From the NCBI RefSeq assembly GCF_037996825.1, contig NZ_JBBNAC010000001.1, positions 3,596,001-3,660,000 on the forward strand: a DNA stretch of 64,000 nucleotides. Reading direction: 5' to 3'. Shown in pieces: positions 19 to 17,086 of the stretch. Numbering within the stretch: position 1 is the first letter of the stretch; each line of letters starts with the position of its first letter. This DNA is from Bdellovibrio sp. BCCA (lineage in GTDB: Bacteria; Bdellovibrionota; Bdellovibrionia; Bdellovibrionales; Bdellovibrionaceae). Both the position numbers and the translations under genes were made by a program. The notes beneath the pieces are model-generated. The model saw nothing but the letters and a program-made list of their open reading frames with translations. It had not been told where the DNA came from and searched no databases.

Positions 19-552
19 TTAAACTTTTTTTGCGAATTGCACATCTAAAGAAATCGAAACGTCGTCACCGACAAGTACGCCGCCTGCTTCCAGAGCCGCA
101 TTCCACGTTAAACCAAAATCTTTGCGTTTGATTTTAGTCGTTGCTGAAATACCAATCTTTGTATTTCCATAAGGGTCTTTCATTTCTGCCGAAGGACCTT
201 CGACATCAAGAACGACTTCTTTCGTCACTCCGTGAATTGTTAAGTCACCTGTCACTTTAAGATCATCACCATCTCTTTCGATCTTTTTAGATTTGAAACC
301 GATGGTTGGATATTTTTCGATATCAAAGAAGTCGGCACTTTTTAAGTGACCGTCACGTTGAGCTTCACGAGTGTTGATGCTAGCGGCATCAATTGTCGCC
401 TCAACGGAAGATTTTGTGATATCGGAAGGATCGTACTGAAGTGTGCCAGAAAGCTTTTCAAAGCCACCGTGAACCTTTGCGATCATCATGTGTTTAACAG
501 AAAAGTTTGCGCTCGAGTGAGCCGAATCAATTTGCCAGGTAGTCATAGACAT
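19..552 (-). CDS. YceI family lipocalin-like protein, cytoplasmic form
   Basis: The 177-residue protein starts MSMTTWQIDSAHSSANFSVK, the opening of the YceI family (the W-x-I-D-x-x-H-S pattern), and fits a single YceI beta-barrel of usual length. YceI proteins bind isoprenoid-like or other amphiphilic ligands; the ligand here is unknown. There is no signal peptide, unlike E. coli YceI, so a cytoplasmic location is inferred. An upstream in-frame TTG would add four residues, but GGAGG lies five bases before ATG 552, so that ATG is chosen. It is transcribed away from its neighbour at 674, with about 120 bases between them. Confidence 0.88.
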   Translation of the reverse strand: MSMTTWQIDSAHSSANFSVKHMMIAKVHGGFEKLSGTLQYDPSDITKSSVEATIDAASINTREAQRDGHLKSADFFDIEKYPTIGFKSKKIERDGDDLKVTGDLTIHGVTKEVVLDVEGPSAEMKDPYGNTKIGISATTKIKRKDFGLTWNAALEAGGVLVGDDVSISLDVQFAKKV

Positions 553-673
553 ATGTTCCTCCAAGGAAACGTGTTATCGATGAACCTAGAATCGCACGGT
601 TTTAATTGTTGCAAAAGGACACAAGAATGCAAAACATTGTTGCAATTTTGTATCCAAGCATAAGAAGCCCTTA

Positions 674-1426
674 TTAAGTATTGGAAGCCGCGATACGACT
701 GCGGACTTTGGCATAAAATGGGACAGTGTATTTGCAGATAATGTGTACAATGTCAGTCCAACGAATATCCGCGATGCAGGCTAGCTCCACGCCTTCGTGG
801 TAACGAGGATTTTTCTCAAGGAAATAACGAACGTCAGCGCTTGAAAGATCACGTGTCGTTGGCACTGCCATCTGATCCTTGACTCGGCCTAAAGACTTTC
901 CAAAATCAATCAATGAAGTTTCTGATTTATAATAGCCGCTGAATTTTCCGTTGTAGAACGTATGCTTCACTGACGCGAGATCCGCAGGAATGGCTCCTTC
1001 CAACGATGGATAGGAGCGTGGAAAATTTCGACGCATCAACATGTAGGTCTTAAACCCCTTGCTGATAAGCATCCAATAAAGTGGAGCAAAAGGATGACGT
1101 AAGCGAGTTAGAAAAAGCACGCGAGTGAATGCAGATTGCAAAGTGCGTGAGCCCCAATAGTCGCTATCAACGACAGTATCCCCAGAATAAATTACGCGAC
1201 CGCCCTCAGGAAGTTCACGAATCAAGATCGTGCTAAAACCAAATAAAAATGGTTCAGAAGATTTGCTTCGATCCCAAAGCATAATGACGCTGGTTTTTTC
1301 TGAAAGATCAGAATTAAAACGCTCAAACTCCACGTCGAAATAATACTTACCGAAAAGATCGAACATGCGTCGACGAAGAGTGGAATCAATTTGTGATACA
1401 GGAAGCAACGTATAACTCAAATCCAT
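674..1426 (-). CDS. GNAT/acyltransferase-like hypothetical protein
   Basis: This is a 250-residue soluble protein without signal peptide. I do not recognise a named family. Its middle (about residues 60-115) has a strand-rich stretch ending in YSGDTVVDSDYWG and then a helix. That resembles the strand 4, turn and helix of GNAT N-acyltransferases, but the classic acetyl-CoA loop is not clear. A similar pattern (YLGDLRMGFDRKG) occurs in the protein encoded at 6919-8046. A GTG 19 codons upstream has no ribosome site; ATG 1426 follows a GATAGG stretch at reasonable distance. The gene is divergent from the 1528-8655 cluster, with about 100 bases between starts, so it may share its control. Confidence 0.6.
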   Translation of the reverse strand: MDLSYTLLPVSQIDSTLRRRMFDLFGKYYFDVEFERFNSDLSEKTSVIMLWDRSKSSEPFLFGFSTILIRELPEGGRVIYSGDTVVDSDYWGSRTLQSAFTRVLFLTRLRHPFAPLYWMLISKGFKTYMLMRRNFPRSYPSLEGAIPADLASVKHTFYNGKFSGYYKSETSLIDFGKSLGRVKDQMAVPTTRDLSSADVRYFLEKNPRYHEGVELACIADIRWTDIVHIICKYTVPFYAKVRSRIAASNT

Positions 1427-1527
1427 AAAATACCTATCTTGGATATAATCACCCTGTAATTCCCTTGTAAAGCGACACTTCACCGTGGGAAGCTAATTTA
1501 TCTTATTTTGACATGAGGAACTATTTT

Positions 1528-4326
1528 ATGAGTTCAGAAAAAGCTCTAGCATTCAATATATTCACTCTGCCAGCGGCGCTTGAAAAAATTTACGCAAAAG
1601 CAGATCCGCGCTGGATTATTGCGATAATCTTGGGCTCCTATAATATTTTGGGCTTTACCGTTCTTGGTTTTAATCGTTCCCCCATGCAAATGGTGGTGAC
1701 TTCCATCATGGCCTGTCTGCTGGAACTTCTTTTGTGTTACTGGGTGCAACGCAAATGGGTTTTTCCGTTAAGCGCGCTCATCACAAGTTTTTCGCTAAGT
1801 CTTTTGCTAAACTATTCGCACAGCTATTGGATTTTAACTGTCCCGGTTTTTTTCGCGATCGGTTCAAAATATTTCTTAAGTCTTAATGGCCGACACTTTT
1901 TTAATCCTGCTTTGACGGGTGTTGTGTTCTGTTTGCTCTTTTCAAGCAAATTCATCACGGCGGCTCCAGCGTACCAGTGGACAGGCATTGAAAATCTTTG
2001 GGTCTTTATGACGTTCTTGGGAGTTTTCTTTCTGCTTCCAAAAATCAATCGCCACTGGCTTGTGATTTCTTTCCTTGCAACTTTCACAGCGCAAACGGCA
2101 CTGCGCGCGTTGATCATGCGTCATCATCTTCCCTTTGAAACTCTTTTTCTGGGAACTTTGACGTCGCCTTCATTTATCCTTTTTACGTTCTTTATGATCA
2201 CAGATCCTATGACTTCGCCAAAAACAAAAAAAGATCAGATCATTGTGGGAGCTTCCATTGCTTTGTTGGATTTGATTTTTCATATCTTCCAAAGTTACTA
2301 CACTTTCTTTTTTGCGGGCTTTACAGTCGCGAGCATTCGCTTTTTGTGGTTTCACTATAAAGCTCTTCGCGATGGCGGTGGTTTTGCCGGGTTTAAAAAA
2401 CGCCTCATTGAATATAAATACCCACGCAAGTTCACTGGTTCATTGGTCGCAGCCGCTTTGGTTTTTGGAACTTACAGTGTCGCCTCAAGTCCTGCGCATC
2501 TTTCAAAAGTTTTAAACTGGAAGTTTGATCATATTCCCGAGTCACAAAGCGGTTTGCATTCAGAGTTCGGAAATATTTTTGAACGTGTCGACCCGCGCAT
2601 TCAACACATTGTAAAATGGGTTTTCAGCGTGGGAGACAGCGTCGCCATTGGTGATTTTGATAATGACGGTAAGATGGATATTTTTTTGACGAATATGTTG
2701 AAAAAAGATTCTGAAAGAGCGGCTCTTTATCACAATGAGGGCGGTTTCCGTTTCACTCGCGTTGCTTTGCCTGAAATCACGACAAGATTCACTCACGTGG
2801 AAGACAATGGTATTCCGACAAATGCGCTTTTTGTCGACTATGATAACGACAATGACTTAGATCTTTTTATTTCCGTGGCTTTTGGATCATCCCGCCTGCT
2901 GAAAAATATGCTGACCGAAACCGGCAAGGCCGAATTCGTTGATGTGACGGCGGAAGTAGGTCTTGAGGATTATAATAACTCCATCACAGCAAACTTCTTT
3001 GATTTCAACCGTGATGGACTTTTGGATCTTTATATTGGGAACGTATGGCCGGATCATCTTCCCAATTACAACAAGCCAACGCCACTGAATCTGTTTCACC
3101 TTCCACAAACCGAATATGATGGCGATGAAAGAATGTTCGACTTTATGCACGCAAGCTGGCACTTGGCGAACAATGGCGGTGAAAACGTTGTCTTCGTTCA
3201 AGATAAGAACGGTCACTTTACTAAATTAGATTCCAAAGAAATTGGAATGCCGGAAACTCGTTGGTCTTTGGCTATTGGGACAGCGGATCTCAATCAAGAT
3301 GGATGGACCGACATTTACATCGCAAATGATTTCGGCCCGGATGATTTGTACTTCAATCAAGAAGGAAAAAAACTTTATAACCACAAAGGCACGATGTTTG
3401 GAAGTATCGGCAAGGATACTTACAAAGGCATGAACGCAAGTATTGCTGACGTGAACAATGATGGATTCCTCGACGTGTATGTTTCAAACGTGCACCATGC
3501 TCTGCAAGCAGAAGGTTCTTTGTTGTGGCTTTTCTCTAAAGACAAAAACGGGAACATGGTTATTCAGGATATGGCGACACAATGGGGCGCCTTGAATGAA
3601 GATCGTTTTGGTTGGGGCGCAAGTCTTGAAGACTTCGATAACGACGGTTGGGTGGATATCATCCAAGCCAACGGCATGGTGGATGATACGCCTGACAAAA
3701 AATTCGAGAGCTGTCCTGATTATTGGTACGTGAACGAAAAAGTTGCGCGCAGTGCTCCTAGTTATCATCGCCTGGCTAACAAGTGGGGCGATATTCGCGG
3801 ACGTTGTATTTATGGAAAAGAAAAAAACCGCGTTTACATCAATCAGGGAACGTCTCTTGGAAATAAATTTGTCGACGTCGCGGACCTCGTTGGTTTGACC
3901 GAAGAAACAAACAGCCGCGGTGTTGCTTCGGCGGACTTTGATAATGACGGACGCAGGGATGTTGTGATCACTCACATGTATGCGTCACCTACTCTGGTTC
4001 GAAATGTTTTAAAAGAAGGTGCGAGCACTCCTCACTGGGTGGGTCTGCAGCTTCGCGGTGACGGCAAGACATGCAATACGCGTGCGGTTGGTACACAAGT
4101 TAAAATGCACTATAAAATCAAAGGCCAAGACACCGTGCAAATTAAAGAAGTTCAGCTTGCCACAGGATTTTCTGCACAAAGTGATGAACGACTTCTTTTT
4201 GGCTTGGGCGATTTCGCAGAACCCGTTGAAATTGAAATCACTTGGTGCGGCTTAAGAAAAGAAACGCGCACTTTAGATATTGATAAATATCACCTTATTC
4301 AAATGAGCCCTGTGACGACTCCATGA
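1528..4326 (+). CDS. RnfD/NqrB-like membrane domain fused to FG-GAP repeats and an UnbV domain
   Basis: The protein has 932 residues. Residues about 25-280 form a polytopic membrane domain with two motifs of the NqrB/RnfD family: NGRHFFNPALTGV and FFMITDPMTSP (compare F-x-x-T-D-P-V-T in RnfD). An extra membrane segment follows near 305-320. From about 370 to 830 there are seven FG-GAP/VCBS repeats with calcium-type D-x-D-x-D-G loops, such as DFDNDGKMD, DYDNDNDLD and DFNRDGLLD. The end (about 835-930) matches an ASPIC/UnbV domain, as in CRTAC1-type proteins. I see no clear S-G-A-T flavin-attachment motif. RnfD-type proteins carry electrons through membranes; a redox role is inferred, with the repeats probably periplasmic. 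ATG 1528 is chosen because GAGGAA precedes it. The end overlaps the GH3 gene by ATGA. Confidence 0.8.
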   Translation: MSSEKALAFNIFTLPAALEKIYAKADPRWIIAIILGSYNILGFTVLGFNRSPMQMVVTSIMACLLELLLCYWVQRKWVFPLSALITSFSLSLLLNYSHSYWILTVPVFFAIGSKYFLSLNGRHFFNPALTGVVFCLLFSSKFITAAPAYQWTGIENLWVFMTFLGVFFLLPKINRHWLVISFLATFTAQTALRALIMRHHLPFETLFLGTLTSPSFILFTFFMITDPMTSPKTKKDQIIVGASIALLDLIFHIFQSYYTFFFAGFTVASIRFLWFHYKALRDGGGFAGFKKRLIEYKYPRKFTGSLVAAALVFGTYSVASSPAHLSKVLNWKFDHIPESQSGLHSEFGNIFERVDPRIQHIVKWVFSVGDSVAIGDFDNDGKMDIFLTNMLKKDSERAALYHNEGGFRFTRVALPEITTRFTHVEDNGIPTNALFVDYDNDNDLDLFISVAFGSSRLLKNMLTETGKAEFVDVTAEVGLEDYNNSITANFFDFNRDGLLDLYIGNVWPDHLPNYNKPTPLNLFHLPQTEYDGDERMFDFMHASWHLANNGGENVVFVQDKNGHFTKLDSKEIGMPETRWSLAIGTADLNQDGWTDIYIANDFGPDDLYFNQEGKKLYNHKGTMFGSIGKDTYKGMNASIADVNNDGFLDVYVSNVHHALQAEGSLLWLFSKDKNGNMVIQDMATQWGALNEDRFGWGASLEDFDNDGWVDIIQANGMVDDTPDKKFESCPDYWYVNEKVARSAPSYHRLANKWGDIRGRCIYGKEKNRVYINQGTSLGNKFVDVADLVGLTEETNSRGVASADFDNDGRRDVVITHMYASPTLVRNVLKEGASTPHWVGLQLRGDGKTCNTRAVGTQVKMHYKIKGQDTVQIKEVQLATGFSAQSDERLLFGLGDFAEPVEIEITWCGLRKETRTLDIDKYHLIQMSPVTTP

Positions 4327-5879
4327 GTTTTCTGTCTCAAACGGCTCACGCAGCCATTCAGGTTTATCAAAAGGCCTCTTACAAACGATTTGTAAAAGGT
4401 CTTTCTGAATTAGAGGCCTTGCAGAAACAAAAACTGCAAGACACTTTGTCGTATCTAAAACCCTATTTGGGTTCCCGGGCTGACGTTGCAGGTTACAAAG
4501 AATTTCACGAAAAATTTCCTATCACTTCTTATCACGATTATCGCGAACTTTTTTCTTCAGAGAGAAAAACGAACAATAAAACCTTGCCAGAAGTCGTTCG
4601 TTTTCAACCTACGAGCGGATCTACGGATAACTTAAAGTGGATTCCGTACACACAAGGGCTCTTAAAAGATTTCGATGCAGCGCTGGGGCCTTGGCTTTAT
4701 GATTTTTATTCTTCCTATCCTGAAGTTTTAAGAGGGCCTCACTATTGGTCTCTTTCATGGCTTCCTCAGGATCTGCGTGATGAAGGTGTGAGACTCAATG
4801 ACACCGAACTTTTCCCTGCGTGGAAAAAGTTATTGTTAAAACAAACAATGGCGGTAATGGCACCTGTGGATCTTGCCGGAAGCAGTGAAAGCTCTTTATT
4901 TGCGACGGTTGCATACTTGCTAGATCGCGACGATCTAAGTTTTGCCTCAGTGTGGAGTCCGACCTATTGGCTGACTCTATTAAAGATTTTAGAAACACAT
5001 CAAAAATCTTTAGCGCACTCCCTGATGGAAGGGGAATGGCAAGCTTACGCAAATGAACTTACGATGTTAGAGTGTCCGCACAATCCTGAAAGAGGTCGCG
5101 AGCTTTTGTCTTCCACGAATGCGCAAGAACTTTGGCCTCAATTAAAAGCTTTAAGCTGTTGGACGACGTCGACAAGCTCTGCTTTTGCGAAAGATATCGA
5201 GAATCGTTTTCCGAAACTCAAAGTTATCGGAAAAGGCCTTTGGGCGACGGAAGGTGTTGTAACGATTCCATTTCAAGGTCATTACACTTTGGCTTCTCAA
5301 AGTCACTTCTTTGAATTTGAAGATATCGAATCAAAAGAAATTCTTCCGTCATGGGAGTTACGGATTGGACAAAAAGTCAGTCCGATTCTTACGACCACTG
5401 GCGGATTGATTCGTTATAAAATGCAGGATGTTTTAGAAGTTTCAGGCTTTAATAGAAAAACACCATGTTTAAATTTTTTAGGGCGTGCTGATGGTGTTGA
5501 CATGGTCGGCGAAAAAACCTCAAGCCTTCGCGCTCAAGAAGTTTTATCCGCACTTAGCAAGTTTGCTCCCCATCAGGAATCTTATTTGTTTGCCGTGAAA
5601 GCAGAGACAAATCAGCACTACTGTGCGGTTCTGAGTCGCCAAGGCAATAAAACTCTCGCTGAACTCTCAAAAGAATTGGAAGAATTATTATCAGAATCAT
5701 TTCACTACAAACTCGCCCGCGAATTGCAACAACTAGGGCCGGCTCAGGTGCTGGTGCACGAAAAGGCTCACGAGAAGTACTTACAGCTTCATTTAAATCG
5801 CGGTATGGTATTAGGGAATATTAAAACGGAGTCTTTGCGCCTCATTTCGGAAAAAGAACTCCAGGAGAATTTTTTATGA
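4323..5879 (+). CDS. GH3-family acyl-adenylate/amide synthetase
   Basis: The 518-residue product matches the GH3 (auxin-responsive promoter) family, adenylating enzymes that join a carboxylic acid to an amine through an acyl-AMP. Visible motifs: the ATP loop TSGSTDNLKWIPYT (about 97-110), the AMP motif GLWATEGVV near 305, and GGLIRYKMQDVLEVSGF near 360, which corresponds to the G-L-Y-R-Y-R-x-G-D block. FLGRADGVDMVGEK follows as the hinge to the C-terminal cap. Length is slightly below plant GH3 proteins, as usual in bacteria. It overlaps both neighbours by ATGA and is surely translated with them. The acid and amine substrates cannot be read from sequence. GH3 proteins outside plants are poorly characterised. 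Confidence 0.85.
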   Translation: MSFLSQTAHAAIQVYQKASYKRFVKGLSELEALQKQKLQDTLSYLKPYLGSRADVAGYKEFHEKFPITSYHDYRELFSSERKTNNKTLPEVVRFQPTSGSTDNLKWIPYTQGLLKDFDAALGPWLYDFYSSYPEVLRGPHYWSLSWLPQDLRDEGVRLNDTELFPAWKKLLLKQTMAVMAPVDLAGSSESSLFATVAYLLDRDDLSFASVWSPTYWLTLLKILETHQKSLAHSLMEGEWQAYANELTMLECPHNPERGRELLSSTNAQELWPQLKALSCWTTSTSSAFAKDIENRFPKLKVIGKGLWATEGVVTIPFQGHYTLASQSHFFEFEDIESKEILPSWELRIGQKVSPILTTTGGLIRYKMQDVLEVSGFNRKTPCLNFLGRADGVDMVGEKTSSLRAQEVLSALSKFAPHQESYLFAVKAETNQHYCAVLSRQGNKTLAELSKELEELLSESFHYKLARELQQLGPAQVLVHEKAHEKYLQLHLNRGMVLGNIKTESLRLISEKELQENFL

Positions 5880-6928
5880 TGTTAAGTCTTCGCGAACGAG
5901 ACAAAGCTTTAATCAATAACTGGTACATTGCTTGTCTTTCTAACGAATTGACTTCCAAGGCTGCGCTGAAGCGAGTGATTTACGACACGCCTCTTGCTCT
6001 TTTTAGAGATCCTCAAGGAAAACCTACGGCTCTTTTAGATCGCTGTGTGCATCGCGGGGCCCAGCTTTCGCTTGGATATTGCGATGAAGGACACTTACGC
6101 TGTCCTTATCACGGCTGGCGCTACGACTCGCAAGGTGTCGTGAATGAAATCCCTTCTGAAGGAAAAGGTGAATGCAAAGGCCGCCATCAACAACGATCTT
6201 ATCCAACCATTGAACAAGATGGAGCGATTTGGGTGTGGATGGGAGAAGGCCCTCCTAAAACGGAAACTCCTCCTTGGCGTTTTCCCAATTATGGGGAAAG
6301 CAAATGGTGTCACTACTACATGATCACGGACTTTGATAACGAAGTGACGAATCTTGTGGAAAATTTCATGGATGTTCCGCACACCGTGTTCGTGCACTCA
6401 GGATGGTTTCGCGATCGTCAGATGACTCACGTTCCAATGACCGTGGATGTGGAAAACGGTCAAGTAAATGTGACTTATCACCAGCCTCAGGACTCCATTG
6501 GATTTACAAGATTCTTGATTAATCCGCTAAATGAAAAAATGACCCACACGGACCGTTTTATTTTTCCGAATATCACGCGTGTGGATTATACATTTGGAAG
6601 TTCTTCCGCGTTTATCATTAACTCTCAGTGCACTCCAGTTTCGACAATGAAGTCCCGGGTGTATACGTACATCGCTTTTAAAACTTTGAATTATGCGTTT
6701 TTGTTAAAACCACTAATGCAGTTTTATACTCGCCAGGTGATCGAACAAGACGTCGAGATCATGAAAAATCAGGGCGATAATTTAAAACTTTTCCCAGATG
6801 TGCCTTTCCGTTCCAGCGAAGCGGATGAATTGCACTTAGCTATTGAAAAAATCCGCCGCTACGGAATTGAAGACAAACCTGAAACTTTCACCTTCGCCAA
6901 GAAAAGTGAGAAGCAGTTTTGGATATAA
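5876..6928 (+). CDS. Rieske non-heme iron oxygenase (PaO/VanA-like)
   Basis: The product has 350 residues. The Rieske [2Fe-2S] site is complete: C57-x-H59 and C76-x2-H79, in CVHRGAQLSLGY and CPYHGW. The catalytic domain shows the mononuclear iron motif ENFMDVPHTVFVH with H169 and H174, and D292 in IEQDVEIMK as the likely third ligand. This is the layout of single-component-type alpha subunits such as PaO, TIC55 and VanA, which hydroxylate or demethylate small aromatic or lipid-like substrates with O2. No ferredoxin or reductase gene is adjacent, so the electron donor is open; the RnfD-like protein of this cluster is a speculative source. ATGA overlap with GH3 upstream, and a 10-base overlap with the next gene. 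Confidence 0.9.
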   Translation: MMLSLRERDKALINNWYIACLSNELTSKAALKRVIYDTPLALFRDPQGKPTALLDRCVHRGAQLSLGYCDEGHLRCPYHGWRYDSQGVVNEIPSEGKGECKGRHQQRSYPTIEQDGAIWVWMGEGPPKTETPPWRFPNYGESKWCHYYMITDFDNEVTNLVENFMDVPHTVFVHSGWFRDRQMTHVPMTVDVENGQVNVTYHQPQDSIGFTRFLINPLNEKMTHTDRFIFPNITRVDYTFGSSSAFIINSQCTPVSTMKSRVYTYIAFKTLNYAFLLKPLMQFYTRQVIEQDVEIMKNQGDNLKLFPDVPFRSSEADELHLAIEKIRRYGIEDKPETFTFAKKSEKQFWI

Positions 6929-8046
6929 GTGAATTTTTAAAGTCTCATTCTGGCGTCACCGTTGCGACAGAGAAAGACAACCAGGAAATTTTAAACTTTT
7001 TTAGCCAAACGCAGATTCAAGGGCGCGGGTTAAATATTGTTTATGATCGGACTCCAGATTTTTTCGCGTTTTTAAAAATTCACTCTCCACGCCTCTTGGT
7101 TCTTATCTATCGAGGTGTGGCTGGCGACATTCAGGGCGTTGCCACTATGCTTTTTCGAAAAGGCTACGTAGATGGAAAGGTCTCTGAGGTTTGTTACCTA
7201 GGTGATCTACGCATGGGATTTGATCGCAAAGGCGCCGTTCTTTGGCGAAAAATCTATGGGGAATTTTTTGCCCGCAAAAGTGAAATTGATCAACTGAAAG
7301 ACGTCGAACTTTTTTATACGTGCTTAATTGACGACAATGAACTTTCTCAGCGAAGTCTTGCGCGCAATAAAAAATCAGGATTTGCGTATCATCGCGTCTG
7401 TCCTTATTCGATGGTGGCCTTGATGATGAAAAAGCCCGGCTTACCGACTTCGCCGACGGAACACGAAGTGACCGATGATCCTTCACTTGAAACCTTGATC
7501 GACTTTTATAAGAAGAATGAAGACTCCACGACGGCGGGATATTTGTATTCCCAAGAGATTCCCGAACGTCTGAATAAATGGCCACAGCTTTCAAAAAAAG
7601 ACTTTTTGATTGTCCGCTATGAAGGCCGCGTCGTGGCTGCTTGTGCTTTATGGTCGCCGCGCGAATGTAAGCGCATCCTTCTCACAAGGGTTCCCTTTCA
7701 TCTTCGCGCCGTTTTTTCTTTCTTGCGTGTTCTAAGTTTTGGAAAGTTTCAATTTGCGGGAGAATTAAAGGTTCTTTACGTCACTCATCTTCTTTTTGAT
7801 CAAAAACTTTCCCAAGACGAAAAAGTAAAAATCTTTAAAGAAGTTTTAAAAGAAGCGTGGAAAGTTCGCGAGAAAAAAGGTTATCATTTCTTAAGTTTCT
7901 GCGACTTTAAAGAGGTGTCCTTAAAAGCAGCGGCGGATTCTTTCATCACAAATGACGTGGCCATGGCCATCCATGAAGTGATGGGAAGTGAAGACGAAGC
8001 TCCTACAAGTAAAAAGGACTACGGCTTTGAAATGGCATTAGTGTAA
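6919..8046 (+). CDS. GNAT-like N-acyltransferase domain protein
   Basis: This 375-residue soluble protein begins at TTG 6919, inside the end of the Rieske gene. A weak GAG-containing site precedes it, and the overlap argues for coupled translation. Residues about 45-115 look like a GNAT fold: GDIQGVATMLFRKGYVDGK, then YLGDLRMGFDRKG before a helix. A second region (about 175-350) may be another acyltransferase-like half (FLIVRYEGRVVAACALWSP). The GNAT assignment rests on pattern and predicted fold, not on an exact motif. In a cluster with a GH3 synthetase, an acyl-transfer role is reasonable, but substrates are unknown. Confidence 0.62.
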   Translation: MDISEFLKSHSGVTVATEKDNQEILNFFSQTQIQGRGLNIVYDRTPDFFAFLKIHSPRLLVLIYRGVAGDIQGVATMLFRKGYVDGKVSEVCYLGDLRMGFDRKGAVLWRKIYGEFFARKSEIDQLKDVELFYTCLIDDNELSQRSLARNKKSGFAYHRVCPYSMVALMMKKPGLPTSPTEHEVTDDPSLETLIDFYKKNEDSTTAGYLYSQEIPERLNKWPQLSKKDFLIVRYEGRVVAACALWSPRECKRILLTRVPFHLRAVFSFLRVLSFGKFQFAGELKVLYVTHLLFDQKLSQDEKVKIFKEVLKEAWKVREKKGYHFLSFCDFKEVSLKAAADSFITNDVAMAIHEVMGSEDEAPTSKKDYGFEMALV

Positions 8047-8055
8047 GGGGCACAA

Positions 8056-8655
8056 ATGGCTTTTTTGTTTCCAGTATTGTTGGTCGTTCAATTTTTATGT
8101 TCGATATGGTTTTACTACAAACAAAACAAAGGGGCTTTCGTTGGCGGTCCCATCAGTTGGCCCAAAGCTGTGTGGCTTTATCATGCGATCTTTTCTTGGT
8201 TCTTAGTGCCCTTAGTGTATTTGTCTCTTCCAGATTTGCATATCTCTTTGAAAATTTTGATCGGTTTGCATGCTCTTATTTGGTGGATTCGTGGGCCTTT
8301 AGAACTTGTGATGATTTATAAGTTCTTTAACTGGACACCTCGTTACGGAATCACTCATGACGTTTTTCATGTGATTTTGTTATTCGCTGGAATGGTGGCA
8401 ACTGCAAAACTTTGGCCGGAAAACATGACAAACTGGATGGCGTTCATTTATTGTGCAGTCACGGTGTTAATGTTGTGTTTTGAAATCAGCTTTGCCGCTT
8501 TATTCTTAGATGTCCGTGGAAACGAAGACTGCCGAATTTATTACGCGGCCGATGAACCGAAATGGAAATTCATCAACTGGCTCACGAAAGTAGGACTGGC
8601 ATTCGGTGTTGGCCATGCAATCATTCAGGCTATTCTCGCGATCGCATATCTTTAA
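8056..8655 (+). CDS. Polytopic inner-membrane protein of unknown function
   Basis: The 199 residues contain about six hydrophobic segments. Polar residues sit between them: an H in LYHAIFSWF, a pair in THDVFHVILL, and an acidic stretch FLDVRGNEDCRIYYAADEPK before the last membrane segment. I do not recognise the family. Histidines in or near membrane helices would fit a lipid-active or metal/heme-binding membrane enzyme, but this is only a hint. It lies ten bases after the GNAT-like gene, with GGGGC before the ATG. It closes the cluster and is followed by a strong terminator. Confidence 0.7.
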   Translation: MAFLFPVLLVVQFLCSIWFYYKQNKGAFVGGPISWPKAVWLYHAIFSWFLVPLVYLSLPDLHISLKILIGLHALIWWIRGPLELVMIYKFFNWTPRYGITHDVFHVILLFAGMVATAKLWPENMTNWMAFIYCAVTVLMLCFEISFAALFLDVRGNEDCRIYYAADEPKWKFINWLTKVGLAFGVGHAIIQAILAIAYL

Positions 8656-8661
8656 AAAAAG

Positions 8662-8690
8662 AAAAGGAGTGATTTCTCACTCCTTTTTCT
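8662..8690. terminator. Bidirectional hairpin terminator
   Basis: AAAAGGAGTGA pairs with TCACTCCTTTT around the loop TTTC, an 11-base perfect stem. It is flanked by A-runs on the left and T-runs on the right, so it can end transcription from both the cluster (+) and the AhpD-like gene (-). Confidence 0.85.
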
Positions 8691-8702
8691 GACTTCCAAC
8701 CT

Positions 8703-9239
8703 TTATTTAAACTGATAGCCAGTTTGTGCAATTCTGCGACCGATATCATGATAAACCGGTGTCGCGTCTGGAGTTGTCGCGCGAAGACCGTCAACGTAGC
8801 GATTGTACATGCAGAAAGCCGCAGCGATCAAAACAGTGTCATGGATCTCAATATCCGTCGCACCTTGAGCTTTTGCATTTTTAATCATCTCTTCAGAAAC
8901 TCCCAAAGCTTGTTTTTGCACTTGGCCCGCAATCTTCAGCAAAGATTTAAGTTTGTTTGAAATCGGTGCTGTTTCAAAATTCGTCTTCACTTGCTCAACA
9001 AGATCAAAATTGTCCTCAAGTAGAACACCCGCAATAGCAGAATGAGAACGCGTGCAGAATTGGCAGTTGTTAAGATTCGAAACGTAAGAGGCAATCATCT
9101 CACGCTCTCCACGGCTCAAAGAAGAAGGACCAACCAACAAAGTTTCTGCAAGCTCATTCAGAGGCTTTGCAGTTTCAGGTCTAAAACCCATCAATCCAAT
9201 AATACCAGGCATGTCGTTATTAAGTTGAATATGAGGCAT
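8703..9239 (-). CDS. AhpD-like carboxymuconolactone decarboxylase family protein
   Basis: The 178-residue protein has the alkylhydroperoxidase AhpD core: NCQFCTRSHSAIA gives C-x2-C-x3-H, the redox-active pair and proton relay of that family. It resembles the 'peroxidase-related' group of about 180 residues, in which E-R-E-M-I and the CxxC helix are typical. A role in peroxide or thiol redox defence is inferred; no AhpC is nearby. The open frame extends 57 codons upstream, but AAGGGAG lies just before ATG 9239 and conserved sequence starts there. It is divergent from the secreted protein gene at 9331. Confidence 0.87.
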   Translation of the reverse strand: MPHIQLNNDMPGIIGLMGFRPETAKPLNELAETLLVGPSSLSRGEREMIASYVSNLNNCQFCTRSHSAIAGVLLEDNFDLVEQVKTNFETAPISNKLKSLLKIAGQVQKQALGVSEEMIKNAKAQGATDIEIHDTVLIAAAFCMYNRYVDGLRATTPDATPVYHDIGRRIAQTGYQFK

Positions 9240-9330
9240 AAAACTCCCTTCAGTTTCAAAAAGGCTATGGCTGTTTTTCAGTCGAAGCAATCTCATTTTA
9301 AGACGTGAAGAGTCTTGAGATTTTATCTTG

Positions 9331-10236
9331 ATGCGCCGATATATTTTTATGCTGTCTGCATTTTGGTTCGTTCTTTTAAGCAGCTTCTCTTTCGCGCAAG
9401 TCGATTGCAAATCATCCGCATCGACATCGTCGCTGACCTATTCTGCTTCAGAAATAAAAAGTATCACGAACGTCGCAATGATGGACGCACTTCAACACAA
9501 TGGTTTTTCCAACATCTCAGTCAAAGAAATTAAAAACTTTAGTGAATCCGTAGGCGGCAAAAAGCCCGAATTGGTTTTAGATATCAGCGCGATGATTCTT
9601 GAAGACAGCGGCTGGAGTGAAGAAGAAGCGATGAACGCCTATAAAAGTGCCAGCAAAATTCTTGGTGTATGCGGCATCGGTTTTGGAAATATCAAACTGG
9701 TGAAAGCAAAATACAAACAAAGCGCTTTCAGATATAAATTCATACCTCAATGCAAAAGAGAAAGAGGAAAACTCTTTACATGCAAACCCGGCATTGAAGA
9801 AAGCAAAGGCACGTCGGCCGAACTCGCAGTAGCAAGCTTTCCGATGGGCCGCCCAGCCATTCACATGGCTGCACCCGACACATCAGAATGGGCCGCAGGC
9901 TGGAGCACTTATAGCAAGAATGGTTTAACTCCGCTTACGATCAGACCACCGATTACAAATGAAGAACAAAAAAATTTAGACTTTTACAATCAAACGCTTC
10001 ACAGCTCTCTAGTCAGCAAAACCAACGAGGCCTATGATCGAACACTCTCACACGAAATAGCCCACCAACTCATAGGAAGCTGCGGAGACGAATCCCCAAA
10101 ACCACAACACCACCACGGCCTAGGCGGACTGATGAGCGCCACAGAAACAAGTAAAGAAGCCAAAGACCTCTGCCCCCTCCTAAGAAAAAGCAGTCTATTA
10201 AGAAAAGGCCCATATAAGACGAGCTTATGGATTTAG
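9331..10236 (+). CDS. Secreted HEXXH putative zinc metalloprotease
   Basis: The protein has 301 residues with an N-terminal signal peptide ending near SFAQVDCKS. Near residue 240, SHEIAHQLIGSCGDE contains the gluzincin/metzincin-type H-E-x-x-H zinc motif, with a histidine cluster (KPQHHHGLGG) shortly after that may supply a third ligand. I cannot place it in a known peptidase family. Export plus a zinc motif suggests an envelope or secreted protease, as is common in predatory bacteria. ATG 9331 is used; TTG immediately before it is an in-frame alternative with no better ribosome site. Confidence 0.75.
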   Translation: MRRYIFMLSAFWFVLLSSFSFAQVDCKSSASTSSLTYSASEIKSITNVAMMDALQHNGFSNISVKEIKNFSESVGGKKPELVLDISAMILEDSGWSEEEAMNAYKSASKILGVCGIGFGNIKLVKAKYKQSAFRYKFIPQCKRERGKLFTCKPGIEESKGTSAELAVASFPMGRPAIHMAAPDTSEWAAGWSTYSKNGLTPLTIRPPITNEEQKNLDFYNQTLHSSLVSKTNEAYDRTLSHEIAHQLIGSCGDESPKPQHHHGLGGLMSATETSKEAKDLCPLLRKSSLLRKGPYKTSLWI

Positions 10237-10305
10237 AAATTTTGAGAATTTTAGATTAAGAGTTTTAGAGTATTGTTCTTAGCGAGAGTTTTTGACTGCC
10301 CCAGT

Positions 10306-10380
10306 TAATTGGGTAGATCCTAATTGGGTAGATCCTTGGGTAGATCCTAATTGGGTAGATCCATTGGGTAGATCCGATCC
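10306..10380. repeat. Short tandem repeat with core TTGGGTAGATCC, five copies
   Basis: Copies begin at 10306, 10321, 10336, 10348 and 10363. Three are the full 15-base unit TAATTGGGTAGATCC, one is 12 bases (lacking TAA) and one is 13 bases (lacking TA). The array sits between the metalloprotease stop and a terminator, in non-coding sequence. A trailing GATCC may be a remnant of a sixth copy. It has no spacers and is not a CRISPR array. Confidence 0.95.
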
Positions 10381-10399
10381 CAGACGGTACAAATAAAAA

Positions 10400-10424
10400 A
10401 ACCGCCAGAAGGCGGTGTTTTTAT
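10400..10424. terminator. Bidirectional hairpin terminator next to tRNA-Val
   Basis: ACCGCC-AGAA-GGCGGT is flanked by an A-run on the left and GTTTTTATT on the right. It ends the tRNA-Val transcript on the minus strand two bases beyond the encoded CCA, and can also stop plus-strand transcription from the metalloprotease gene. Confidence 0.85.
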
Positions 10425-10425
10425 T

Positions 10426-10501
10426 TGGTAGGGAATGCCGGATTCGAACCGACGACATCCACCTTGTAAGGGTGGCGCTCTACCAACTGAGCTAATTCCC
10501 T
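10426..10501 (-). tRNA. tRNA-Val (anticodon TAC)
   Basis: The 76-base cloverleaf reads on the minus strand. Acceptor AGGGAAT pairs with ATTCCCT, D arm GCTC-AGTTGGTA-GAGC, anticodon arm CCACC-CTTACAA-GGTGG with anticodon TAC, T arm GTCGG-TTCGAAT-CCGGC, discriminator A and an encoded CCA. All stems pair, with one G-U in the T stem. It decodes GUA and probably further GUN codons by wobble. Confidence 0.97.
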
Positions 10502-10508
10502 ATTCGTT

Positions 10509-10540
10509 CGGAAGGTCCATTTTTTAGCGTGGTCCTTCCG
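10509..10540 (-). other. Hairpin just upstream of tRNA-Val
   Basis: CGGAAGGTCCA and TGGTCCTTCCG form an 11-base stem with one mismatch and a 10-base loop. In the minus-strand transcript it ends seven bases before the tRNA 5' end. It has no following U-run on that strand, so it is not a simple terminator for the gene at 10568; it could mark a processing site or leader. Confidence 0.6.
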
Positions 10541-10567
10541 ATCTTGCAATCTCTTTTTTCAAAAATA

Positions 10568-11125
10568 TTACTTTTTTATATCTTCCATGCACACTCTTTG
10601 AGTTAAGTGCGCTGAAATCTTCACGATTTGCATGTGAACCATCTCATCCGCAGCCTTATTATCAAGAGCGCCCATTGAAAGAACCATCACACCTTGAGTT
10701 GGGACGTTGCCCTTCAGTGGTGTAATTGGTGAATCTTTCTCGTTAAATGCCGTCAATTGAACACGGTATGTAGTACCCGCTCGGCTGGTCATTTGCGCCA
10801 AAACCTTTTGGTTGCGCTCTAAGCCCACGCCTGTTGCTAACATCTTACAAGTGTCTCCGTCGAATTGCTTTACTTGCAATTGGCGGATGCCTGTTGCTTT
10901 TTGACGAACCACTTTCAAAGCGAAGTAAGAAGTGAAGTCCCCTTGTTCCACTTTCCACAAGCCTTGAATATCTGTCCATGGGAATGGCTGAGCCAATGTC
11001 CACGGCCAAGGAACCGGACGATTATCGCTCGCCGGAATGATGTGCTCGTCATCAGCCGCACGAGCGCCCACTGACAGAGTCAGGCTTGTAAAAATCAATG
11101 TTGCCATCAAGATGTTGCGTAACAT
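10568..11125 (-). CDS. Secreted protein of unknown function
   Basis: The 185-residue protein has a clear signal peptide (MLRNILMATLIFTSLTLSVG, cleavage after ARA). The mature part opens with a Pro/Trp-rich stretch (PVPWPWTLAQPFPW) and continues WTDIQGLWKVEQGDF and alternating strands, suggesting a small beta-barrel or lipocalin-like fold. The two cysteines (about residues 92 and 179) might form a disulfide. I do not recognise the family. AGGGGGGATTC precedes the ATG. It starts only nine bases after the stop of the TPR regulator, so the two are likely one operon. Confidence 0.75.
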   Translation of the reverse strand: MLRNILMATLIFTSLTLSVGARAADDEHIIPASDNRPVPWPWTLAQPFPWTDIQGLWKVEQGDFTSYFALKVVRQKATGIRQLQVKQFDGDTCKMLATGVGLERNQKVLAQMTSRAGTTYRVQLTAFNEKDSPITPLKGNVPTQGVMVLSMGALDNKAADEMVHMQIVKISAHLTQRVCMEDIKK

Positions 11126-11134
11126 GAATCCCCC

Positions 11135-12238
11135 CTAGTGCTCGAAATGAACTCGAGCCGCTTTATTCATGTAGTATCCGTTTTTAGCTCTAAAAATATA
11201 TTTTGGTTTCTCGTAATCCGGTTCAATGAGTTTACGAAGACGTTTGATCGTCACGTAAATCTTATTGTCGTGGATCGCGGGATCGTAAGGTTGCTTCCAT
11301 ACGTTCTCAACCAAATACTCTTTCGAGTAAATTTGGCCCTGATTCTGAACGAACAAACGCAAAAGGTCGAGAAGAATGAACTGATTTTTGAAATCAATGC
11401 GACCCAATTTTCTCTCTGTGACCGCATGATTACCTTCGTCAAAAATCAAATCATAACTTGTCTGAGGTTCTGCACCGATTTTCGATGCGTAGAAGTCAGC
11501 AATCTTACTAAGTCTTACATGATTTTCTGTGTCGATAGATTTTTGTGCGAGTGACAAATACACGCGCGCTAAATCTTTATCACCCATCTCGAAGTAAACG
11601 TCTCCAAGTTGGATCATCAAATAAGAAGCCATCACCACGTTGCGAGTTTCTTTAAGCGCATCGTAAGCTTTCCAAAGAACCGTCACCGCTTCTTCGTACT
11701 TTTTCATTTGCGCCAAGATATTTCCGTTTAGGATCAGCGAAGAAATTCTAAGTTCTGGAAGATTGTAAACCTGGAAGAAAACTTCAAGATTGTAGATCTC
11801 TTTCAATGCATCTGCGTAGCGAGCCATCGATGGGCTTGAGTAAACCATCGCAAGACCGAAGATCGCGTTGCAAATATCTTCTTTGTTGTCAGAGGCAAGA
11901 GCGATAGCAAGAGCCTTTTGAACGTAATCCAAAGAGACGTCTTGTTGTCCTTTGTAGAAAGCACAGATAGCGAGCGTGTAATAAGTTTTGGAGTTGAGTT
12001 CAAAGCCTTCTTTAAGAACTAGATCTTGGAGTTTTTCTTTTGTGAGATTGATTTCTTCAAACTGTTCGCGCTCTGCATAGATACGCAAAAGAATGTTCAA
12101 GCACTTCAAGTATTGAGAGAAATTTTTCTCAGCAAAGTATCCCTGAGACGCATCGTTGAGATGCGTGATCGCGGAGGTGAATTCTCCCCGATCGGAATAT
12201 AACTTGCCGAGCTCAAAGGCACGATCTAGTTGGCTCAT
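11135..12238 (-). CDS. TPR regulator with C-terminal OmpR-type winged helix
   Basis: In 367 residues, about 1-255 are helical TPR-like repeats and about 270-355 are an OmpR/PhoB-type DNA-binding domain (LLDLLRLFVQNQGQIYSKEY, then HDNKIYVTIKRLRKLIEPD, then YIFRAKNGYYM as the wing). There is no receiver domain. SARP/AfsR proteins have the DNA-binding domain first; here the order is reversed, with the TPR part first. It probably senses a partner protein or peptide and controls nearby genes. It is divergent from the lipoprotein gene at 12511 across a 272-base region containing an inverted repeat. ATG 12238 has only a distant GGAG. Confidence 0.82.
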   Translation of the reverse strand: MSQLDRAFELGKLYSDRGEFTSAITHLNDASQGYFAEKNFSQYLKCLNILLRIYAEREQFEEINLTKEKLQDLVLKEGFELNSKTYYTLAICAFYKGQQDVSLDYVQKALAIALASDNKEDICNAIFGLAMVYSSPSMARYADALKEIYNLEVFFQVYNLPELRISSLILNGNILAQMKKYEEAVTVLWKAYDALKETRNVVMASYLMIQLGDVYFEMGDKDLARVYLSLAQKSIDTENHVRLSKIADFYASKIGAEPQTSYDLIFDEGNHAVTERKLGRIDFKNQFILLDLLRLFVQNQGQIYSKEYLVENVWKQPYDPAIHDNKIYVTIKRLRKLIEPDYEKPKYIFRAKNGYYMNKAARVHFEH

Positions 12239-12429
12239 AAGTTCTTAAAACTCCAAAACAAAATCTAAATTACTCGCTGGGGTACAGGTTTTTACAGATT
12301 GTCAGGATTTCGTCAATGTAAGACGCGAACATTTGCACAAAAACTGTGCATAGTGAGAATTGATTTCAGTAATTTAATAAAGTGCGCTCACTGGGCGTCA
12401 CTTAACGCGCGGAGCCTTTGGTCCAAGTT

Positions 12430-12448
12430 TAATAAGTCCGGCTTATTA
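12430..12448. promoter_or_regulatory. Perfect inverted repeat between divergent genes
   Basis: TAATAAG-TCCGG-CTTATTA is a 7-base perfect dyad 62 bases before the lipoprotein start and 190 bases before the regulator start. A second dyad AGTCC-N9-GGACT overlaps it. Placement suggests an operator, possibly for the adjacent TPR/winged-helix regulator; this is inference. Confidence 0.45.
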
Positions 12449-12510
12449 GGACTCTGAAAGACGTTAAAAGACTGTCAAAATAAACCGTATAACACTCACA
12501 AGGACAACGG

Positions 12511-13596
12511 ATGGGTCATCTGCGTTTTTTCATCATGTGTTTTACAGCAGTTACTTTGCTGTCGTGTTCTCCTAAGGAAGAAGAAAAAACACAAAAGCCA
12601 GATAATCAAACGGCAGAGCAGCCGACTCCGATTCCAACTCCTGCGCCAATCCCGACACCGGCTCCATCTCCGGCGCCGGGTCCAGTTCCTGCCCCTACTC
12701 CAACTCCGCAACCCGAGCCGTCTCCAGTACCACGACCATCACCAGAACCTGCGCCGCCAACGCCAACGCCAACGCCAACGCCAACGCCTGTGCCGCAGCC
12801 TCCGGTGGCTTTGAATTGTCCTGTGAATTTCGAAAAGGTGGAGGCAAATCTCTCTCTGAAAACAGAGGCGTTTTGTATCGCAAAATTTGAAATGAAAAAA
12901 GTGAACGGCCTTGCTTCTTCGGCGCCATCAGGAAAACCGTGGCTCGCTGGAAAAACCGCAGCGACAGAAGCTTGTGCTAATCTTGGAAACGGCTATCGAC
13001 TTCCAACGAACTACGAATGGAATGCAGCCGCTTTAGAAATTTACAACAACAAACTCAATTGGACAGGAAAAGGTCACGGAGACGGAACTCTCTACACTGG
13101 TTTCTACAGTGCATGGAGTGAACCCGTTGAGATCAAAGACGTTAACGACCCTTACGATAGCACCGGCGCAAAAAAAGGGATCGAGCGACGCACGTTCTAT
13201 CTTGCAAGCGGCAATGTTATTTGGGATTTCGGTGGCAACGCTTGGGAATGGGTCTCTGACACTATTTACGGAAACTCATACACGCCGGACCTTTCAAGTC
13301 CTTATGGTCGCAATTATCACAACAACAATTGGGATATAAAACCCGGCTCTCCGCAACTTTTTGATTTCACTGGAATGAGCAGCGTTCCTAAAAACGATGT
13401 CTATCTTGGAAACTTATTCGGCGGAAGTTCGGGCAAAGTCATTCGTGGCGGAGCTGTTTGCATCCACTCTAAAGGAGTCACTGGAATTTTCGCCGCAAAC
13501 ATTGGCGACATTACGGCCGATGATCTTCAAGCCCCGGCATCGTGGAATCTCAAAATGAACAACATTGGATTTCGCTGTGTCTATCAACCGCGATAA
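12511..13596 (+). CDS. Lipoprotein with proline-rich stalk and FGE/SUMF1-like domain
   Basis: The protein has 361 residues. A lipobox (VTLLSC, Cys19) marks it as a lipoprotein. Residues about 35-100 are a Pro/Ala/Thr-rich stalk (PTPIPTPAP and similar). The rest is a formylglycine-generating-enzyme-like domain: [30 protein letters not shown] and NNIGFRCV. The catalytic cysteine pair of true FGE is not evident; only the cysteine in GGAVC lies near that place. So it is probably a structural or ligand-binding member of the fold, shown on the cell surface or in the periplasm. AAGGA precedes the ATG by six bases. Divergent from the TPR regulator at 12238. Confidence 0.85.
12757..12786 (+). repeat. 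CCAACG hexamer microsatellite in the proline-rich stalk
   Basis: Five exact tandem copies of CCAACG lie within the stalk coding region and encode part of the alternating Pro-Thr run. Copy-number change would alter stalk length without shifting the frame. Confidence 0.9.
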
Positions 13597-13744
13597 GGAT
13601 CTTTTAACAAAAAATTGATCTCATTTAAGTAGCTGATATTTTCCAACAATTTCCTCACCCGCCCAAAAGATAAACAAATAATTTAAAGTTTATTCTGTTG
13701 CCCGCCGAAAAAATATCACAGGTCTAAAGTAGAGGAGGCCCCGA

Positions 13745-14209
13745 GTGCAATTCGTGAACAAGTTGATGTTGTTAGTATCGGTTTTCGGCTTAAGCGCATG
13801 CGCAACGATCGTCAAATCAGACAAGATTCCCGTCAAGTTTGTCGGAGGACTTGAAAGAGGCGAGACAAAAATCAGTTTGCCTGATGGGCAGTACACAGCA
13901 CTGAATGGAAGAACCACAGTGTTAGTGAGTCGCTCCAAAGAAGACATTCCTATCACCGTGACATGCAATCAACAAACACGCGAAGGTGTGATTAAAACTG
14001 AATACGATGCAACCGCGGGTATTCTTGGAAATATTGTTTTCGGTGGAATCATCGGAATGGGTATTGATGCTTACAATGACAAGACTTACGATCCACCAGA
14101 AATTTATAACGTAGCTCCACTGTGTTCGACGGATAAACCCGTTGATAACATTGCAGAGAGTTCCGATCTCCCACGCCGACCTAGTTCGATCACGCGCAAT
14201 AAGTATTGA
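13745..14209 (+). CDS. Small lipoprotein with glycine-rich membrane-like segment
   Basis: The protein has 154 residues, GTG start after GGAGG. Lipobox GLSAC places Cys19 as the lipidated residue. The middle holds GILGNIVFGGIIGMGIDAYN, a glycine-rich hydrophobic stretch seen in several families of small bacterial lipoproteins, followed by a Tyr/Pro-rich tail and a basic C-terminus. Function unknown. It stands alone between the FGE-like lipoprotein and lon, and has its own terminator. Confidence 0.78.
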   Translation: MQFVNKLMLLVSVFGLSACATIVKSDKIPVKFVGGLERGETKISLPDGQYTALNGRTTVLVSRSKEDIPITVTCNQQTREGVIKTEYDATAGILGNIVFGGIIGMGIDAYNDKTYDPPEIYNVAPLCSTDKPVDNIAESSDLPRRPSSITRNKY

Positions 14210-14228
14210 TGAATCAAAATACAAAAAG

Positions 14229-14255
14229 AAAAGGCCCTCTTATCGAGGGCCTTTT
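14229..14255. terminator. Bidirectional terminator between lipoprotein gene and lon
   Basis: AAAAGGCCCTC and GAGGGCCTTTT form an 11-base perfect stem around TTATC. A and T runs on both sides let it serve the lipoprotein gene (+) and lon (-). Confidence 0.88.
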
Positions 14256-14297
14256 AAGTTTAATGCACTATTGCCAGAAAAAAGAAGCAGGCACCTT

Positions 14298-16790: not shown

Positions 16791-16822
16791 ATCCTCTCCC
16801 TCCCTGTGGGTTAACGAGCTTA

Positions 16823-16841
16823 CTTGTGCATAGGACACAAG
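16823..16841 (-). promoter_or_regulatory. Inverted repeat in the lon leader
   Basis: CTTGTG-N7-CACAAG is a perfect 6-base dyad centred about 42 bases upstream of the lon start. It could be an operator or a leader hairpin. It does not match the CIRCE element. The rest of the 296-base region shared with the divergent kinase gene shows no clear further signal. Confidence 0.35.
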
Positions 16842-17086
16842 CCGGATCTGCGTCGGTTAAATATCCTTATCCAACCTTCGCTGTTCCTACTAATAAGCTT
16901 AACTATGTGTTCGATTACTGGGAAGTAAATATATTTGGAAAAAAAAGAGTTCTGGTCCTTGCCACGAGTCCAAATTGCTCACATTTTGGGCATCATTAAA
17001 GAGCCTAATGTTACTCGAAAATTATTCTTATTTGCGTCGGATTTTGAGAATCTTTCCTAATTGTAATTCCCGGGAGTCAGATTTTC

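Follow-up and report, generated by a model that had tools for sequence, protein, structure and literature searches.

We identified a six-gene core, comprising a GNAT acyltransferase, an UnbU-UnbV fusion protein, a GH3 acyl-acid amido synthetase, a Rieske oxygenase, an N-myristoyltransferase (NMT)-like double-GNAT protein and a polytopic membrane protein, which is clustered and co-inherited across bacterial phyla. We consider it reasonably likely that this core belongs to a biosynthetic cluster in which a fatty-acyl chain is desaturated, oxidised, amidated by the GH3 synthetase, the NMT-like enzyme and the GNAT, and then exported. The product is probably a heavily oxidised fatty-acyl amide.

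Layout of the locus

Five of the core genes run consecutively near the start of the window (the whole 64,000-nucleotide stretch analysed). The features of the region are as follows.

19-564, minus strand: YceI-like lipid-binding protein (PF04264, E 7e-56)
674-1483, minus strand: sixth core gene, single-domain GNAT acyltransferase (AF2 model, fold match, operon membership elsewhere)
1528-4326, plus strand: gene 1, RnfD/NqrB-like membrane half with FG-GAP repeats and UnbV_ASPIC (Pfam, PDB profile relatives)
4323-5879, plus strand: gene 2, GH3 acyl-acid amido synthetase with N-terminal, central and C-terminal domains (Pfam, conserved adenylation motifs)
5876-6928, plus strand: gene 3, Rieske non-haem iron oxygenase (Rieske and VanA_C domains; ligands invariant)
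6919-8046, plus strand: gene 4, double-GNAT acyltransferase of N-myristoyltransferase fold with a fixed C-terminus (AF2 model, structure comparison)
8056-8655, plus strand: gene 5, conserved polytopic membrane protein without a named family
8662-8687, no strand: hairpin, likely a bidirectional terminator, between gene 5 and 8703-9410
8703-9410, minus strand: carboxymuconolactone decarboxylase/AhpD-like protein, also near the cluster in two relatives (L047, L048)

The coordinates confirm the tight packing described in the sequence-only reading, with overlaps of 4, 4 and 10 bases followed by a 9-base gap, all on the plus strand. Gene 1 may start at 1528 or 1513; the former is favoured because AGGA directly precedes it. 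Gene 4 starts with TTG. The terminator proposed for the cluster end is present as an 11-pair stem at 8662-8687, directly after gene 5, common to gene 5 and the convergent gene at 8703-9410. From the packing we infer that the five genes are co-transcribed, and their description as one unit is borne out at the functional level by the cross-genome co-location and co-inheritance reported below. The convergent gene is a probable accessory gene, and its open reading frame was probably called with an overlong start.

Conservation and co-inheritance of the core

We scanned for gene 1 in one genome per species across 84,980 species, which yielded 149 relatives, and kept the best 80 of these 149 loci (43-56% identity). 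Partner genes were counted at 43 loci from other genomes, drawn from the best 80 of 149 and having 8 kb or more of flanking sequence on both sides. At least three of the five partners were present at 36 of the 43 loci, which belong to many phyla; all five occurred at 17, and two or fewer at 7. By partner, GH3 was found at 37 loci, the Rieske oxygenase at 36, the GNAT at 31, gene 5 at 29 and gene 4 at 26. Eight loci whose UnbU/UnbV relatives are all distant served as a control, and none of the partners was present there. The check that had been proposed for the five-gene grouping, a search for co-occurrence in other genomes, did not refute it: the genes are not generally scattered in relatives.

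The order of the core genes varies from locus to locus, and partners are missing at some. Four loci (L120, L125, L127 and L133) carry a compact operon that runs Rieske, membrane protein, GNAT, GH3, NMT-like protein, gene 1. The GH3 gene is not always in the cluster, because the cores of two genomes (G047 and G056) lack it and these genomes hold only a distant GH3 elsewhere. The accessory genes also vary, and include desaturases, radical SAM, P450, AurF-like and SnoaL-like proteins, a glycosyltransferase, and MATE and RND transporters.

Co-inheritance was assessed in 154 genomes of the phylum, with p values that ignore relatedness. The GNAT was found in 30 of the 154 genomes, and every one of the 13 that carry gene 1 belongs to these 30 (p 5e-11). 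Gene 5 occurs in 10 genomes, each of which also carries gene 1 (p 2e-13). The 13 genomes with gene 1 span 12 genera. Within the genus, a close form of gene 1 was present in only 2 of 24 genomes (that of the window and 23 others), and its presence is therefore patchy. The gene 1 tree mostly tracks phyla, with 10 label changes versus 31.9 in shuffles, and a single recent transfer was accordingly dropped as an explanation for the broad distribution. One record titled Comamonas sp. KCTC 72670 (L095) groups within Myxococcus in this tree, which indicates either mislabelling or transfer.

Extent of the cluster

The five-gene grouping of the sequence-only reading is sound as far as it goes but incomplete: the gene at 674-1483 belongs to the core, and the cluster runs on about 10 kb upstream of the window. 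The protein encoded at 674-1483 adopts a GNAT fold (AF2 model pLDDT 91; Foldseek E 7.7e-6), its model giving VIA Z 12.8 to GCN5 and 11.5 to the AHL synthase LasI, and its true start is likely M20, at about 1426. It is divergent here; its family lies within the operon at other loci (L049, L050, L118, L120, L127 and L131), and many further genomes, G047 and G056 among them, share this arrangement.

In the window genome (G000), the cluster spans contig positions ~3585750 to 3604655. Its upstream half lies outside the window, at positions 7756-17996 of a neighbouring stretch (L170; contig 1, 3578000-3597990), and consists of three tandem fatty-acid desaturases, an MFS protein, a 496-aa protein from a family linked to the cluster, an RND/MMPL-like transporter, a PAP2 phosphatase and, terminating just short of window position 1, a fourth desaturase. 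Four of the six FA-desaturase matches of the genome and its best RND homologue lie no more than 11 kb from the window start. For every upstream gene except the MFS gene, homologues adjoin the core in other genomes. Proteins matching FA_desaturase can alternatively act on other lipids as hydroxylases or ketolases. Apart from ordinary fatty acids, the cluster encodes no evident source of a carbon skeleton. The YceI-like gene at 19-564 sits in the cluster between the upstream desaturase and exporter genes and the core, and its membership is uncertain.

Gene 1 is a fusion of UnbU-like and UnbV-like proteins

Domain analysis of gene 1 revealed NQR2_RnfD_RnfE, FG-GAP and UnbV_ASPIC domains, with a transmembrane region at about 33-262 in the membrane half. 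The N-terminal half belongs to the Pfam superfamily PF03116 (68.3 bits, cut-off 27.7) but scores below the curated NCBIfam rnfD model (50 bits versus a cut-off of 207). The C-terminal half matches PF13517 (127.9 bits) and PF07593 (44.8 bits), with FG-GAP and UnbV_ASPIC present. The solved relatives follow the same division, RnfD for the N-terminal half and CRTAC1 (9etn, E 1.6e-10) for the C-terminal half. The stretch between the two aligned blocks is ~23 positions long in the profile of gene 1 and ~93 residues long in E. coli RsxD, and the covalent-FMN threonine segment (S/T-x-A-T; GISQAT in RsxD) falls within the ~70 residues that are missing and is absent from gene 1.

The two halves correspond to the protein kinds that go by the names UnbU and UnbV in enediyne biosynthesis; the RnfD-like half joined to the UnbV/FG-GAP half therefore makes gene 1 a fusion of UnbU-like and UnbV-like proteins. 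The earlier label of an RnfD-like fusion was right about the fusion, but the partner half is UnbV/FG-GAP and the flavin segment of RnfD is lacking.

Unfused UnbU/UnbV pairs adjoin an iterative KS-AT-ACP-KR-DH synthase at two loci of the same phylum, L061 967-13912 (two pairs) and L059 1-10737. These loci, from relatives of the same order, resemble an enediyne cassette outside actinomycetes; no phosphopantetheinyl transferase domain was recognised in their PKS. At a locus of the same genus (L058 8589-11850), UnbV, UnbU and a fatty-acid desaturase form one overlapping run. The placement of such pairs beside a PKS or a desaturase fits action on unsaturated chains. By analogy with the enediyne cassette, which makes diynes, we hypothesise that gene 1 may form alkynes here; its step is the least certain of the mechanism.

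GH3 synthetase and Rieske oxygenase

Gene 2 is, from its sequence, a complete GH3 enzyme, for which ATP-dependent amide formation is predicted. All three GH3 domains exceed their cut-off of 23.6 bits (PF03321, 87.7; PF23571, 61.9; PF23572, 29.3), and the adenylation residues G99, K105, T309, E310, R364, D369 and K398 are invariant in 44 of 44 sequences. A second GH3 gene in the window genome (contig 1, 1883648-1887479) adjoins an RND-like transporter homologue and possibly marks a second acyl-amide locus.

Gene 3 contains the CxH and CPYHGW motifs, D-x2-H-x4-H and the later Asp of a 2-His-1-Asp site, and its ligands (C57, H59, C76, H79, D166, H169, H174, D292) are kept in 43/43 homologues. It falls under every curated NCBIfam cut-off. 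The best match, the 4beta-methylsterol monooxygenase SdmA (E 2e-22), covers the N-terminal half only and scores 79.7 bits versus the cut-off of 600 for this sterol C-4 monooxygenase equivalog; the top-ranked solved relatives are dicamba, saxitoxin-pathway and methylxanthine enzymes. Full GH3 and Rieske domains with intact active-site residues support the proposal of amide-forming and O2-dependent lipid or acyl chemistry, as predicted activities. Two related clusters that lack the UnbU-UnbV fusion (L054 4701-15028 and L055 1755-11892) contain three Rieske oxygenases, GH3, the GNAT, an SDR and ferritin-like or AurF-like proteins.

An acyltransferase of N-myristoyltransferase fold and a membrane protein

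Gene 4 has no Pfam match at E 0.1. PDB profile searches found no match for the GNAT and membrane families and nothing above chance level for gene 4; fold comparison was needed. The AF2 model of gene 4 (pLDDT 92.6) aligns with N-myristoyltransferase over its full length (Z 21.3, rmsd 4.2, 319 residues aligned, 7% identity), with two GNAT domains in the NMT arrangement. The protein had been described as GNAT-like; its fold is more precisely the double-GNAT fold of NMT.

In the same comparison, the last residue of gene 4 aligns with the last residue of NMT, and in 40/40 sequences the C-terminus lies exactly four residues past a conserved E/D. In human NMT1 the catalytic base is the C-terminal carboxylate, although NMT1 withstands the loss of two residues because a glutamate takes over (PMC7048800). 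By this analogy the gene 4 enzyme would most likely take its own C-terminal carboxylate as base. The idea that all cluster proteins share a fixed C-terminus was dropped: only gene 4 and, nearly, the Rieske protein show a fixed end, and the ends of the other core families are loose. A gene 4 paralogue in the window genome (L158; contig 1, 1496517-1497602) is present in nearly all Bdellovibrionales searched; its family is of the same kind as gene 4, belongs to the core genome and has a constant short C-terminal end, EPFFxL.

Gene 5 has no Pfam match and retrieved no named family in profile searches. GG, K, W and R residues are invariant in 32 homologues.

Proposed pathway and alternatives

Both the product and each reaction are inferred: the desaturases, the Rieske enzyme and the exporter point to oxidised lipid chemistry, and the GH3 together with two acyltransferases points to amide formation. 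In the proposed pathway, the desaturases would desaturate a fatty-acyl chain in the membrane. The UnbU-UnbV fusion would carry out a further membrane-bound dehydrogenation or a related change of the unsaturated chain, a step modelled on the supposed role of its relatives in enediyne assembly, and the Rieske enzyme would insert oxygen or bring about another oxidative change. Transfer of acyl groups from CoA or ACP onto an amine would fall to the NMT-like enzyme and the GNAT; GH3 would adenylate a free carboxyl end and couple it with an amino acid or amine. Export of the product would be the task of the RND-like protein. A bolder version of this pathway, which we offer as a tentative possibility, is that the clusters define a new and widespread natural-product class: acetylenic or highly unsaturated fatty-acyl amides made without PKS, NRPS or a dedicated carrier protein, in which a stand-alone UnbU-UnbV fusion performs enediyne-type dehydrogenation on ordinary fatty-acyl chains and a bacterial NMT-fold enzyme amidates with its own C-terminus as base.

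The SdmA match of gene 3, the YceI-like protein adjoining the core and the P450 found in some clusters would also suit a terpenoid or sterol-like lipid in place of a fatty-acyl chain. The Rieske enzyme would then act on a ring or methyl group, the desaturase-family proteins would be hydroxylases or ketolases, and the GH3 and GNATs would amidate the resulting acid. The partial, far sub-threshold nature of that match and the different ranking of the solved Rieske relatives count against such a substrate, as does the fact that no terpene cyclase was seen among the annotated neighbours, and we regard it as unlikely. Somewhat less improbable, yet still not favoured, is that gene 1 serves as an Rnf-like electron-transfer module feeding the Rieske oxygenase and the desaturases, rather than as an acyl-chain enzyme. 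The homology of its N-terminal half to RnfD/NqrB is consistent with that role, and the core showed neither a reductase nor a ferredoxin gene. However, the covalent-FMN segment of RnfD has no counterpart in gene 1, the five-gene run contains no other Rnf subunit genes, and the C-terminal half is CRTAC1-like, a domain in which we know of no redox motif.

The fold and fixed C-terminus of gene 4 match those of N-myristoyltransferase, which uses myristoyl-CoA to acylate peptide N-termini at Gly/Lys. This raises the question of whether the NMT-like protein, together with the GNAT, acylates the N-terminus of a peptide or protein while the remaining enzymes make an unusual acyl donor. Yet the fold does not fix the acceptor, and an unsystematic look at the core operons noticed no conserved small peptide gene; we consider this improbable, on a par with the terpenoid or sterol substrate. 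Coincidental packing of unrelated genes would agree with the variable gene order and the loci without partners, but it is contradicted by the cross-phylum co-localisation and co-inheritance and is extremely improbable. We favour the oxidation and amidation of a fatty-acyl chain.

Relation to known systems

The enediyne PKS cassette consists of E10/E/E5/E4/E3 (PMC5181780). Like that cassette, the present cluster contains an RnfD-like membrane protein and an FG-GAP/UnbV protein, here fused, but it has no PKS in or near it. Ketosynthase matches in the window genome lie only at ~1907, 1740 and 1977 kb, in ORFs of 392-463 aa. To our knowledge, the enediyne cassette does not include GH3, Rieske or acyltransferase partners.

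Bacterial polyyne clusters of the caryoynencin and collimomycin type bring several fatty-acid desaturases together with an adenylating enzyme, as does the present cluster, which differs in its GH3, UnbU-UnbV fusion and GNATs. A motif scan of small ORFs found no carrier protein, and no fatty-acyl-AMP ligase was recognised among the genes scanned. Gene 2 shares three domains and the adenylation residues with plant GH3 enzymes (GH3.15, GH3.12, JAR1) but is remote in sequence and lies in a bacterial cluster. Gene 3 shares the Rieske ligands and the 2-His-1-Asp site with the monooxygenases DdmC, SxtT and SdmA, from which its sub-threshold NCBIfam scores set it apart. Gene 4 resembles eukaryotic N-myristoyltransferase in its full-length double-GNAT fold and in a strictly conserved C-terminus at the same place, but is a barely similar bacterial protein in a biosynthetic cluster.

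Each enzyme class is already known. Full-text searches found no paper describing this core, which is weak evidence since subscription papers were mostly outside their coverage; in this mostly open-access literature, the earlier statement that no described pathway has this gene set stands. In the literature searched we found no description of the core as a whole, of an UnbU-UnbV fusion free of a PKS, or of the bacterial NMT-fold acyltransferase that the core contains.

The core is maintained across several phyla; Myxococcota, Alysiella (Neisseriaceae), Saprospiraceae and predatory Bdellovibrionota are among its carriers. This maintenance points to a family of metabolites that the usual cluster-finding tools would probably miss, since the core showed no PKS, NRPS or terpene synthase. 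The cluster also appears, from structural modelling, to supply a bacterial enzyme of N-myristoyltransferase fold. Here the UnbU/UnbV pair, long of uncertain function in enediyne assembly, is isolated in a testable, PKS-free setting.
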